From the NCBI RefSeq assembly GCF_000022145.1, contig NC_011891.1, positions 4,322,501 to 4,386,500 of the forward strand: a stretch of DNA of 64,000 bases, in the 5' to 3' direction. Source of the DNA: Anaeromyxobacter dehalogenans 2CP-1. Its GTDB lineage: Bacteria; Myxococcota; Myxococcia; Myxococcales; Anaeromyxobacteraceae. Position 1 is the stretch's first letter. Each line of letters begins with the position of its first letter. Below are positions 8,430 to 14,195 of the stretch, piece by piece. The notes beneath the pieces are model-generated. The model was not told the DNA's origin, searched no databases, and saw only the letters and a list, made by a program, of their open reading frames with translations. The position numbers were made by a program, and so were the translations under genes.

Positions 8430-8684
8430 AGCGCGACGTCGATCCGCGCGCCCTGCGCGCGGGCGACGCCTCGCCGCGGATGAGACGCGCCTCATCATCG
8501 ACCTCACCGCTCCACATCCGGACGCGTACGCGCCGCTCGCTCGACGCACGGTCCATGGCGCCACGCGTCACGACGCCATTCACGAAGAGTCAAGGAAGGT
8601 GGGTGCCCCAACTGGCCACGCCGCGCCTCTGCCATCCGCCGAAGGACGGGGCTATGGAGATCGAACCTCCTGGAGGTTCGAGCC
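8430..8684. other. Intergenic region upstream of the formate dehydrogenase operon
   Basis: This gap holds no credible gene. It contains a 6-bp hairpin GATGAG-N6-CTCATC at 8479-8496 shortly after the preceding stop codon, a possible weak terminator. A perfect dyad at 8662-8680 overlaps the fdnG ribosome-binding site. I could not find a convincing sigma70 or sigma54 promoter by eye. Confidence 0.5.
8662..8680 (+). promoter_or_regulatory. Palindrome enclosing the fdnG Shine-Dalgarno sequence
   Basis: CGAACCTCC (8662-8670), T, GGAGGTTCG (8672-8680) is a perfect 9-bp inverted repeat. The right arm contains GGAGG, 8 nt before the fdnG ATG at 8685. In RNA it would fold as an 8-bp stem with a CTG triloop, burying the ribosome-binding site. 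In DNA it could be an operator. Either reading would control the whole operon. The symmetry is seen; the role is inferred. Confidence 0.5.
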
Positions 8685-11600
8685 ATGTCCGTCACCCGAC
8701 GCCAGTTCCTTCAGCTCACCGCCGCCGGCGTGGGCAGCACCGGCCTGGTCGCGCTGGGCTTCTCCCCGGATCGCGTCCTCGCCGACGTCCGCAACTTCAA
8801 GCTGTCGCGCACCGCCGAGACGCGGAACACCTGCCCGTACTGCTCGGTGGGCTGCGGCGTCATCCTCTACACGCTGGGCGATCGCTCCAAGAACGCGCAC
8901 AGCGCGGTGATGCACGTCGAGGGCGATCCCGACCACCCCGTGAACCGCGGCACGCTCTGCCCGAAGGGCGCGTCGTTGCTCGACTTCGTCCAGAGCCCGA
9001 ACCGCCTGCGCTACCCCGAGTACCGCGCGCCCGGCTCCGACAAGTGGGAGCGCGTCACCTGGGACTGGGCGCTCGACCGGATCGCGCGCCTCATGAAGGA
9101 CGACCGCGACAAGAACTTCGTCGCGAAGAACGCGGCGGGCGTGACGGTGAACCGCTGGCCCACCGTCGGCCTGCTGGCCGCGAGCGCCTCGTCGAACGAG
9201 ACCGGCTACATCACCCACAAGGTCTGGCGCGCGCTGGGCGGGGTCGCGATCGACAACCAAGCACGTGTTTGACACGGTCCAACGGTGGCCGGTCTGGCCC
9301 CCACGTTCGGCCGTGGCGCGATGACGAACAGCTGGGTCGACATCAAGAACGCCAACCTCGTCCTCGTCATGGGCGGCAACCCCGCCGAGGCGCACCCCTG
9401 CGGCTTCAAGTGGGTGGTCGAGGCGAAGGCGCACAACAAGGCGCAGCTCATCGTGGTCGACCCGCGCTTCACGCGGACCGCCGCGGTCGCCGACGTCTTC
9501 GCGCAGATCCGCCCGGGCACCGACATCGCGTTCCTGGGCGGCGTCATCCGGCACCTGCTGGAGAAGGACGCGATCCAGAAGCAGTACGTGACCGCGTACA
9601 CCAACGCCTCGCTCATCGTGAAGGAGGGCTACGGCTTCCAGGACGGCCTGTTCTCCGGGTACGACGAGGCGAAGCACACCTACGACAAGTCGACCTGGTC
9701 GTACGAGACCGGACCGGACGGCTTCGCGAGGAGCGACCCGACGCTGCAGGACCCGCGCTGCGTGTACCAGCTCATGAAGAAGCACTACGCGCGCTACACG
9801 CCGAAGATGGTGGCGGACATCACCGGCGTGCCCGAGGCCGCGTTCACGCGCATCTGCGACGCGATCGCCACCACCTCCGCGCCGGACCGCACCATGACGG
9901 CGCTGTACGCGCTCGGCTGGACGCAGCACTCGGTCGGCTCGCAGAACATCCGCTGCATCGCGATGATCCAGCTGCTGCTCGGCAACGTGGGCATGGCCGG
10001 CGGCGGCGTGAACGCGCTGCGCGGCCACTCCAACATCCAGGGGCTGACCGACCTCGGCCTGCTCTCCGACCTGCTGCCCGGCTACCTCACCGTGCCGCGC
10101 GACGCGGACACCGACGTCGAGACGTACCTGGCGAAGCGGACCCCGAAGCCGCTCCGGCCCGGCCAGATGAACTACTGGCAGAACTACCCGAAGTTCTACG
10201 CGTCGCTCATGAAGGCCTGGTACGGGAAGGCCGCCACCAAGGAGAACGGCTGGGCGTACGACTACCTGCCCAAGCTCGACAAGGTCTACGACATCCTCGC
10301 GGTCTTCGACCTGATGCACCAGGGCAAGGTGAACGGGTACCTCTGCCAGGGCTTCAACCCGCTCGCGTCGATCCCGAACAAGCCCAAGCTGCTCGAGTCG
10401 CTCTCGAAGCTGAAGTTCCTCGTCACCATCGACCCGCTCGTCACCGAGACCTCGAACTTCTGGCAGAACCACGGCGACCTCAACCCGGTCGAGTCCGCGA
10501 AGATCCAGACCGAGGTGTTCCGGCTGCCCTCCAGCTGCTTCGCCGAGGAGGACGGGTCGCTGGTGAACTCCGGGCGCACGCTGCAGTGGCACTGGAAGGC
10601 GGCCGAGCCGCCCGGCGAGGCGAAGGGCGACCCCGAGATCGTCGCGGCGCTCTTCACCCGCATCCGGGCGCTCTACGAGAAGGAGGGCGGCGCCTTCGCG
10701 GATCCGATCCGCGACCTGACCTGGGACTACAAGATCCCGCGCGCGCCGTCGGCCGAGGAGCTCGCCCGCGAGTTCAACGGCAAGGCGCTCGCGGACGTGA
10801 AGGACCCCAAGGCGGATCCGAAGGACCCGAAGGCCCCGCTGCTGGCGAAGGAGGGCGAGCAGCTCGCCACGTTCGCGCACCTGCAGGACGACGGCAGCAC
10901 CGCGTCCGGCAACTGGCTGTACTGCGGCTCCTTCACGCAGGCCGGCAACCAGATGGCGCGCCGCGACGTCTCCGACCCGAGCGGCCTGGGCGTCACGCCG
11001 TCCTGGGGCTGGTCGTGGCCGGCCAACCGCCGCGTGCTCTACAACCGCGCCTCCTGCGATCCGTCCGGGAAGCCGTGGGACAAGAACCGCAAGCTGGTCT
11101 GGTGGAACGGCGCGAAGTGGGTCGGGCACGACGTGCCGGACTTCAAGATCGACTCGAAGCCCGAGGAGGGCATGTCGCCCTTCATCATGAACCCGGAGGG
11201 CATGGGCCGGCTGTTCGCGCTCGACAAGATGGCCGAGGGGCCGTTCCCCGAGCACTACGAGCCGTTCGAGTCGCCGGCGGCGTCGAACGCGATGCACCCG
11301 AAGGTCGGGCCGAACCCGGCCGCGCGCATCTTCCCCGGCGACAAGGCGCAGCTCGGGCTGCCGGGTGAGTTCCCGTACGCCGCGACCACCTACCGCGTGG
11401 TGGAGCACTTCCACTTCTGGACCAAGCACGCGCGGATCCCGTCGGTGCTCCAGCCCGAGCTGTTCATCGAGCTGGACGAGGTGCTCGCCGGCAAGAAGGG
11501 CATCCGCAGCGGCGACGCCGTCGCGGTCCGCTCGAAGCGCGGCCGCATCGTGGGCAAGGCCGTGGTCACCAAGCGCATCAAGCCCCTGAAGATCGCGGGC

Positions 11601-11771
11601 CAGGAGGTCCACACCGTCGGGATCCCCATCCACTGGGGGTTCAACGGGCTCACCAAGCCCGGCTACATCTCGAACACCCTCACCCCCTTCGTCGGCGACG
11701 CGAACACCCAGACGCCCGAGTTCAAGGCGTTCCTGGTGGACGTGGAGAAGGCCGCGGCGGGGCAGGTCTAG
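8685..11771 (+). CDS. fdnG: Formate dehydrogenase catalytic subunit, selenocysteine-containing
   Basis: A 1028-residue molybdopterin formate dehydrogenase alpha subunit, oxidising formate to CO2 at the outer face of the inner membrane. A Tat signal (RRQFLQL, residues 5-11) directs folded export. One [4Fe-4S] cluster is ligated by C50, C53, C57 and C92. The in-frame TGA at 9270-9272 is read as selenocysteine 196: the flanking peptides QARV-U-HGPTVAGLAPTFGRGAM match the active site of respiratory formate dehydrogenases, and the reading frame continues unbroken to 11771. A SECIS-like hairpin follows. The C-terminal molybdopterin-dinucleotide-binding domain includes VVEHFHFWTKHA and HWGFNG. Expression needs SelA, SelB, SelC and SelD encoded elsewhere. 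Confidence 0.95.
9270..9272 (+). other. Selenocysteine codon (TGA) in fdnG
   Basis: TGA falls at codon 196, in the same frame as both halves of the gene. It sits between ARV and HGPTV, the same position as the selenocysteine of E. coli FdnG. A naive gene finder would split the gene into 8685-9272 and a fragment starting at GTG 9285. Confidence 0.93.
9281..9307 (+). promoter_or_regulatory. Bacterial SECIS-like hairpin downstream of UGA
   Basis: The upper stem GGCC (9287-9290)/GGCC (9296-9299) closes a GGUCU apical loop (9291-9295), the same loop bases known for E. coli formate dehydrogenase SECIS elements. The lower part can pair AAC (9281-9283) with GUU (9305-9307), with bulges. The loop begins 18 nt after the UGA, a spacing suitable for SelB binding during decoding. 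Confidence 0.8.
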
Positions 11772-11780
11772 GAGGCGGCC

Positions 11781-12656
11781 ATGGCGTTCCAGTCGCTCGA
11801 CGTCATCAACCGGTCCGCCTCCACCAGCACGCCGCCGCAGGCGCGCGGCGCGCTGGAGGTGGCGAAGCTCATCGACATCTCCAAGTGCATCGGCTGCAAG
11901 GCCTGCCAGTCGGCGTGCATGGAGTGGAACGACCTCCGCGACGAGGTCGGGGTGAACCCCGGGCACTACGACAACCCGGCCGACCTCACCGCGCAGTCGT
12001 GGACGGTGATGCGCTTCTACGAGGAGGAGCTCCCCGCGGACAGGGGGCTCGCCTGGCTCATCGTGAAGGACGGCTGCCTGCACTGCGCCGAGCCCGGGTG
12101 CCTGAAGGCGTGCCCGGCGCCGGGCGCGATCGTGCAGTACGCGAACGGGATCGTGGACTTCCAGCAGGACCAGTGCATCGGCTGCGGCTACTGCCAGACC
12201 GGCTGCCCGTTCAACATCCCGCGCTACTCGATGAAGGACCAGAAGGCGTACAAGTGCACGCTGTGCTCCGACCGCGTCTCGGTCGGGCTCGAGCCGGCGT
12301 GCGTCAAGACCTGCCCCACCGGCGCGCTCGCGTTCGGCACCAAGACCGACATGAAGGACCTCGCCGGCGAGCGCCTGGTCGAGCTGAAGGCGCGCGGCTT
12401 CGAGAAGGCGGCGCTCTACGATCCGTCCGGCGTGGGCGGCACGCACGTGCTGTTCGTGCTCCCGCACGGCGATCCGGAGCTGTACCGCCTGCCCAAGGAC
12501 CCGCGGGTGTCGCCGCTGGTGGCGCTGTGGCGCAGCGGCGTCGCCAAGACGCTCGGCGTCCTCACCATGGTCTCGGTCGTGGTGGCCGGGATCTTCCACT
12601 ACATGAAGGTCGGACCGGTCGAGGTCGACGAGGACCAGAAGGAGAACGGGTCATGA
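11781..12656 (+). CDS. fdnH: Formate dehydrogenase iron-sulfur (beta) subunit
   Basis: A 291-residue electron-transfer subunit. Four ferredoxin-type cysteine groups are visible: [12 protein letters not shown] (about 36-47), [27 protein letters not shown], and [21 protein letters not shown]. They indicate four [4Fe-4S] clusters passing electrons from the alpha to the gamma subunit. A single C-terminal transmembrane helix (near residues 252-270, [19 protein letters not shown]) anchors it. It starts 9 bp after fdnG, and its stop overlaps the start of fdnI. Confidence 0.95.
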
Positions 12657-13303
12657 TGCCTGCGATGCGGATGCCGCCGGGGAAGGAGGTCGTCCCCCGC
12701 TACTCGACCGGCGAGCGCCTCACGCACTGGGCGGTGGCGGTCGCGTACGTGGCCCTGTTCCTGTCCGGCCTCGCCATGTTCCACCCGTTCTTCTACTGGA
12801 CCAGCGCGCTGTTCGGCAGCGCCGCGTTCATGCGCGTGCTCCACCCGTTCCTCGGCGTGGCGCTGTTCGTGCTGTTCTACGCGTACGCGCTGCGCCTCTG
12901 GCGCGACAACATCCTGAGCGACAGCGACCGGAAGTGGATGGGCCAGATGGTCGCGTACATGAACAAGGCGGCCGAGCCCTACGTGGACGGCAAGTACAAC
13001 GCCGGCCAGAAGCTCATGTACTGGTCGATGATCGTGGTGATCGCCGGCCTGTTCCTCACCGGCATCGTGCTGTGGCGCCCCTACTTCGCGCCCTCCTTCT
13101 CGCTCGTCGCGCGCCGCTTCGCGGCGGTGATCCACGCCGGGCTCGCGTTCGTGATGTTCGTGGGCATCGGCATCCACGTGTACGCGGCCTACTGGACCAA
13201 GGGCTCGATGCGCGCCATGACCCGGGGCACCGTCTCCGGCGCGTGGGCGCGCTTCCATCACCCGGGCTGGTACGCCCGGATGACCGGCAAGGAGCGGCCG
13301 TGA
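12653..13303 (+). CDS. fdnI: Formate dehydrogenase cytochrome b (gamma) subunit
   Basis: A 216-residue inner membrane di-heme cytochrome b of the FdnI/FdoI type. About four transmembrane helices are seen. Candidate heme-ligand histidines lie in [12 protein letters not shown], in the second helix ([11 protein letters not shown]) and in the last helix ([22 protein letters not shown]). The last motif is typical of the family and lies near the quinone site. It passes electrons from FdnH to the quinone pool. The ATG at 12653 overlaps the fdnH stop (ATGA). Confidence 0.93.
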
Positions 13304-13340: not shown

Positions 13341-14195
13341 GTGAGCACGCTCGTGCAGCTCCCCGGGGTCGAGATCCCGTACCTGCGCCTGCCCGAGCCG
13401 GGCCTGCTCTTCACGGGCCGGGCCGCGCGGCTCGAGGCCGTCGCGGCGGAGCGCGGGGGCGATCCGTTCCTCGGCTTCCTGGGACGGCTCGCCGGCGCGC
13501 AGCGCGCCGCGACCGCGGCGGTGCCCGGCTTCACGCCGCCGCGCGCGCCGGGCCGCCCCGTGGACCGCGACGCGCTCGCCGCCGATCCGGCGCTCGGCGC
13601 GGTGCTCCGTGCGCTCCTCGTGGCGCTCCCCGCGGACGGCCTGCCCGACGCCGCCGCGGAGGCCGTGCGCGGCCTCCGGGACGCCGCGCCGGACGCGCTG
13701 CGGCGCATCGCGGGCGGCGTGCTCGCCGGGGCCTCCCGCCCCGAGGACCTGGCCGCGGCGACGTTCGTCGGGGCCGCGCTGCAGGTGCTCGCCACCGTGC
13801 GGGCCGCGCGGCTCGACCCGTCCACGGTGGCGCGGGTGGAGGGCGGCTGCCCGGTGTGCGGCTCCCCGCCGGTGGCCGGCGTGGTGCAGGGCGACGATCG
13901 CCTCCGCTACCTCACCTGCTCGCTCTGCGCGGCCGAGTGGCACCTCCCGCGGATCCGCTGCGCCGGCTGCCAGGCCACCGCCGGCCTCGCGTATCACCAC
14001 CTCGAGAACGATCCCGGCGCGCGCGCCGAGACCTGCGCCGCCTGCCAGGGCTACGTGAAGCTGTTCGACCTCGAGAAGCGCCCCGGCTCGGAGCCGTTCG
14101 CCGACGACGCGGCCACCCTCGCGCTCGACCTGCTCCTCGGCGAGGCCGGGCACGGGCGCGTCGGCCCGAACCTGTTCCTGCCCGTCGCCGGCTGA
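13341..14195 (+). CDS. fdhE: Formate dehydrogenase accessory protein FdhE
   Basis: A 284-residue cytoplasmic rubredoxin-like maturation factor for Tat-exported formate dehydrogenases. The C-terminal half has the paired CxxC motifs of the family: CPVCGSPP, CSLCAAEW, CAGCQA and CAACQG. The N-terminal half is helical and Ala-rich. The GTG at 13341 has GGGGGAGG about 6 nt upstream. It is the last gene of the formate dehydrogenase operon, 37 bp after fdnI. FdhD, the sulfur-transfer partner, is not in the window. Confidence 0.92.
   Translation: MSTLVQLPGVEIPYLRLPEPGLLFTGRAARLEAVAAERGGDPFLGFLGRLAGAQRAATAAVPGFTPPRAPGRPVDRDALAADPALGAVLRALLVALPADGLPDAAAEAVRGLRDAAPDALRRIAGGVLAGASRPEDLAAATFVGAALQVLATVRAARLDPSTVARVEGGCPVCGSPPVAGVVQGDDRLRYLTCSLCAAEWHLPRIRCAGCQATAGLAYHHLENDPGARAETCAACQGYVKLFDLEKRPGSEPFADDAATLALDLLLGEAGHGRVGPNLFLPVAG

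Follow-up and report, generated by a model that had tools for sequence, protein, structure and literature searches.

The gene at positions 8685-11771 (forward strand) of the window, i.e. the whole 64-kb stretch of DNA analysed here, almost certainly encodes a selenocysteine-containing FdnG-type alpha subunit of formate dehydrogenase-N and bears its own SECIS element, as judged from its sequence. In translation, the frame holds a single internal stop, a TGA at codon 196 (9270-9272, context TGA-C), and the ORF list presents the two halves of fdnG as separate ORFs (8685-9272 and 9285-11771). When the TGA is read through as selenocysteine, the product of 1,028 residues matches the TIGR01553 model of formate dehydrogenase-N alpha subunits over residues 3-1022 (1511 bits for a cut-off of 814.2) and its residues 1-1023 align with the full length of E. 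coli FdnG (1kqf_A; 1540 bits, ~62% identity). The selenocysteine of the E. coli protein (X in that sequence) lies opposite codon 196 and is shared here, followed by a histidine (RV-U-HGPTVAGLAPTFGRGAMTN). Both the translation and this alignment thus agree with the initial annotation, which had described the frame as open except for a TGA at the active-site position of FdnG. The protein also contains a twin-arginine signal (TRRQFLQL), and a GGAGG that is likely to be the ribosome-binding site can be read 8 bases 5' of the ATG (8672-8676, forward strand).

A TGA within a frame may also stem from an error in the sequence or a mutation that abolished the gene's function, and fdnG would then be a pseudogene. 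The two ORFs that a standard gene finder is expected to report are compatible with such a history, yet codon 196 is a stop in all 24 genes of the family and a TGA in all 80 relatives listed, fdnG has no other disruption, and the part of the gene that follows the TGA combines a GC3 of 0.99 with homology over its full length. The conservation of the TGA together with the covariation of the SECIS (see below) refutes the pseudogene explanation, whose probability we regard as vanishingly small. The possibility of an error at 9270-9272, which had been named beforehand as a reason to doubt the prediction, is excluded by the stop found at codon 196 in the 80/80 relatives listed and, after realignment, in 36/36 other genes inspected. 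Some matches in relatives seemed to have extra stops (a second TGA or a TAG), but the realignment shows no other internal stop; the only extra stop still inside an alignment is at query position 1024 of one relative (L042), at the C-terminal end, so the extra stops of the relatives were taken as terminal. No support for the expected splitting of the gene by automated annotation comes from E. coli fdnG, which RefSeq presents as one CDS of 3,048 bases.

The sequence directly 3' of the TGA (CACGGUCCAACGGUGGCCGGUCUGGCCCCC) belongs to a bacterial SECIS element at 9267-9325 (forward strand), which was detected with the Rfam covariance model SECIS_3 (RF01989) at 80 bits (cut-off 63, E = 2.6e-17 for the 64 kb window). 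This is the sole Rfam match above the cut-off in the window and the best-scoring SECIS_3 match across the 5.03 Mb genome. It covers the full model (1-59) and shares all its main pairs, nothing material being different. The apical hairpin, GGCC-GGUCU-GGCC, occupies positions 9287-9299 (forward strand) above an unpaired U at 9286 and is supported by sequence, conservation and compensatory changes. A hairpin with a GGUCU loop had been anticipated in the initial annotation, and that part of the claim holds, but its distance to the TGA was measured as 15-27 nt instead of the 14-26 nt originally given. Folding had been suggested as a check; the single sequence folds no more stably than its shuffles (z = -1.03), a result uninformative on its own, so the conservation of the hairpin was examined, and it is the covariance model and the conservation among relatives that support the structure.

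The broad scan of genome contigs provided 80 relatives' loci among the matches listed. The TGA is followed by C in 80/80 of these, the loop conforms to [AG]GT[CT]T in 80/80, and the four pairs of the apical stem are perfect in 79/80, the stem occurring in three versions (GGCA/TGCC, AGCA/TGCT and GGCC/GGCC). The second FdhA of the genus has yet another stem, CCCC/GGGG. Across 14 distinct sequences, 84.8% of the cells for SECIS_3 pairs show a formed pair, versus 79.9% in shuffles and 30-51% when the structure is slid; four pairs show changes on both sides, and the compensatory changes exceed those of nearly all shuffles. The lower stem is weaker, as pair 17-44 is broken in 11 and pair 10-50 in 7 of the 14 sequences. 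Codon usage points in the same direction. All 24 family genes use GGT at codon 203, which supplies the GU of the loop, versus a background of 74 GGT among the 2,074 glycine codons of these genes (3.6%), and the rare arginine codon CGT occupies position 210 (9312-9314) in 20/24 of them versus a background of 3.1%; these two are the sole rare codons so strongly kept across the whole gene. Plain synonymous identity over codons 197-213 (0.82 for a gene mean of 0.77, with 22.5% of windows as high) is not significant, whereas the sharper rare-codon test is. Based on these sequence comparisons, we conclude that selection acts on the hairpin at the RNA level. Codon 210 sits outside the apical hairpin. 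It might mark a lengthening of the lower SECIS stem that is specific to the family and would tune selenocysteine insertion in these GC-rich genomes, although we consider this suggestion improbable.

The presence of a functional selenocysteine system elsewhere in the genome had been predicted from the fdnG sequence, and the search of the genome (5,029,329 bases in one contig) recovered all of its components: a tRNA-Sec with a UCA anticodon (76.7 bits), selA (509 bits), selB (315 bits) and selD (387 bits), the three protein genes each scoring above their curated cut-offs. A lack of selB and selC, the other finding named beforehand as counting against the prediction, is thereby excluded. These genes do not form one operon: selA and selB are ~12 kb apart and the tRNA-Sec gene is ~1.8 Mb away. 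The selD gene (genome 3923608-3924534; minus strand of the stretch examined, L081:2004-3182) has an in-frame TGA (GAG-U-ACK), so SelD itself is predicted to be a selenoprotein; selD genes with an in-frame TGA are known from other bacteria. The homologous position is a TGA in two further formate dehydrogenase alpha subunits as well, encoded at genome 2096355-2099393 (ARLUHSPTV; plus strand of the stretch examined, L082:2712-5918) and near 990393-991751 (ARIUHSSTV; minus strand, L083:4447-4746). Both coincide with SECIS_3 matches below the threshold and bring the genome to three predicted selenocysteine-containing formate dehydrogenase alpha subunits. It could be argued that the TGA of fdnG is read in another way, as cysteine, as tryptophan or by simple readthrough. 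Nevertheless, all the sel genes are present in the genome, the SECIS is conserved, and E. coli FdnG has its selenocysteine at the aligned position, which makes any decoding other than selenocysteine highly improbable. What was observed directly comprises the gene with its TGA, the SECIS and its covariation, and the full set of sel genes.

The genes that follow on the same strand are those of a formate dehydrogenase locus. The iron-sulfur beta subunit is encoded by fdnH (11781-12656; TIGR01582, 414 bits, cut-off 335) and the cytochrome b556 gamma subunit by fdnI (12653-13303; TIGR01583, 170 bits, cut-off 116; PF01292), whose start overlaps the end of fdnH in the sequence ATGA. They are followed by fdhE (13341-14195), which codes for a formate dehydrogenase accessory protein; its TIGR01562 score (186.9 bits) is marginally below the cut-off of 187.65, and its three FdhE Pfam domains are above theirs. 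The locus is thus a standard fdnGHI-fdhE block headed by fdnG. The order G-H-I, the position of the SECIS and its GGUCU/AGUCU loop are common to this locus and the E. coli formate dehydrogenase-N system (fdnGHI; FdnG structure 1KQF), the differences being the presence of fdhE directly after fdnI and the apical stem, GGCC/GGCC here versus AGCA/UGCU in E. coli fdnG. Of the 24 family genomes, 23 have the fdnG gene, and the one without it has an estimated completeness of 66%. Anaeromyxobacter sp. PSR-1 and A. oryzae have relatives with 90% and 84% identity. A scan of base composition found no further TGA-interrupted coding frames in the whole 64-kb window, but it is a blunt tool: even fdnG escaped it, its first fragment being diluted by upstream non-coding bases. 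The window has a GC content of 75% and many of its long antisense ORFs are spurious, for instance the one at 8652-12599 on the reverse strand, opposite fdnGH.

By analogy with the characterised E. coli system, from which selenocysteine insertion, cofactor, export and enzyme activity are inferred, SelA would convert Ser-tRNA-Sec into Sec-tRNA with selenophosphate provided by SelD. During translation of the fdnG mRNA, SelB, with GTP and Sec-tRNA-Sec, would bind the hairpin 15-27 nt 3' of the UGA at codon 196, contacting it through the GGUCU loop, and selenocysteine would be delivered at the UGA. In the finished alpha subunit, Sec196 would ligate the molybdenum or tungsten cofactor, and the subunit would be exported with FdnH via the Tat pathway. 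FdnG, FdnH and FdnI would then make up a formate:quinone oxidoreductase in the membrane, with formate being oxidised at its outer face.

A survey of bacterial selenoproteins (Zhang et al. 2006, PMC1794560) reported FdhA in 67 of 75 selenocysteine-using bacteria and attributed 11 selenoproteins to Anaeromyxobacter dehalogenans, including FdhA (3) and SelD (Table 3). The three FdhAs and SelD are the same set as in this genome, although the strain surveyed may differ; the finding is thus correct and already known. A selenocysteine-encoding fdnG with its SECIS is well supported, represents textbook biology and was already catalogued for the genus, so that current understanding is unchanged. What it offers is the confirmation, in Anaeromyxobacter, of a selenoprotein that is among the commonest in bacteria and, in the fdnG SECIS, a clean example of RNA-level selection within a GC-rich coding sequence.
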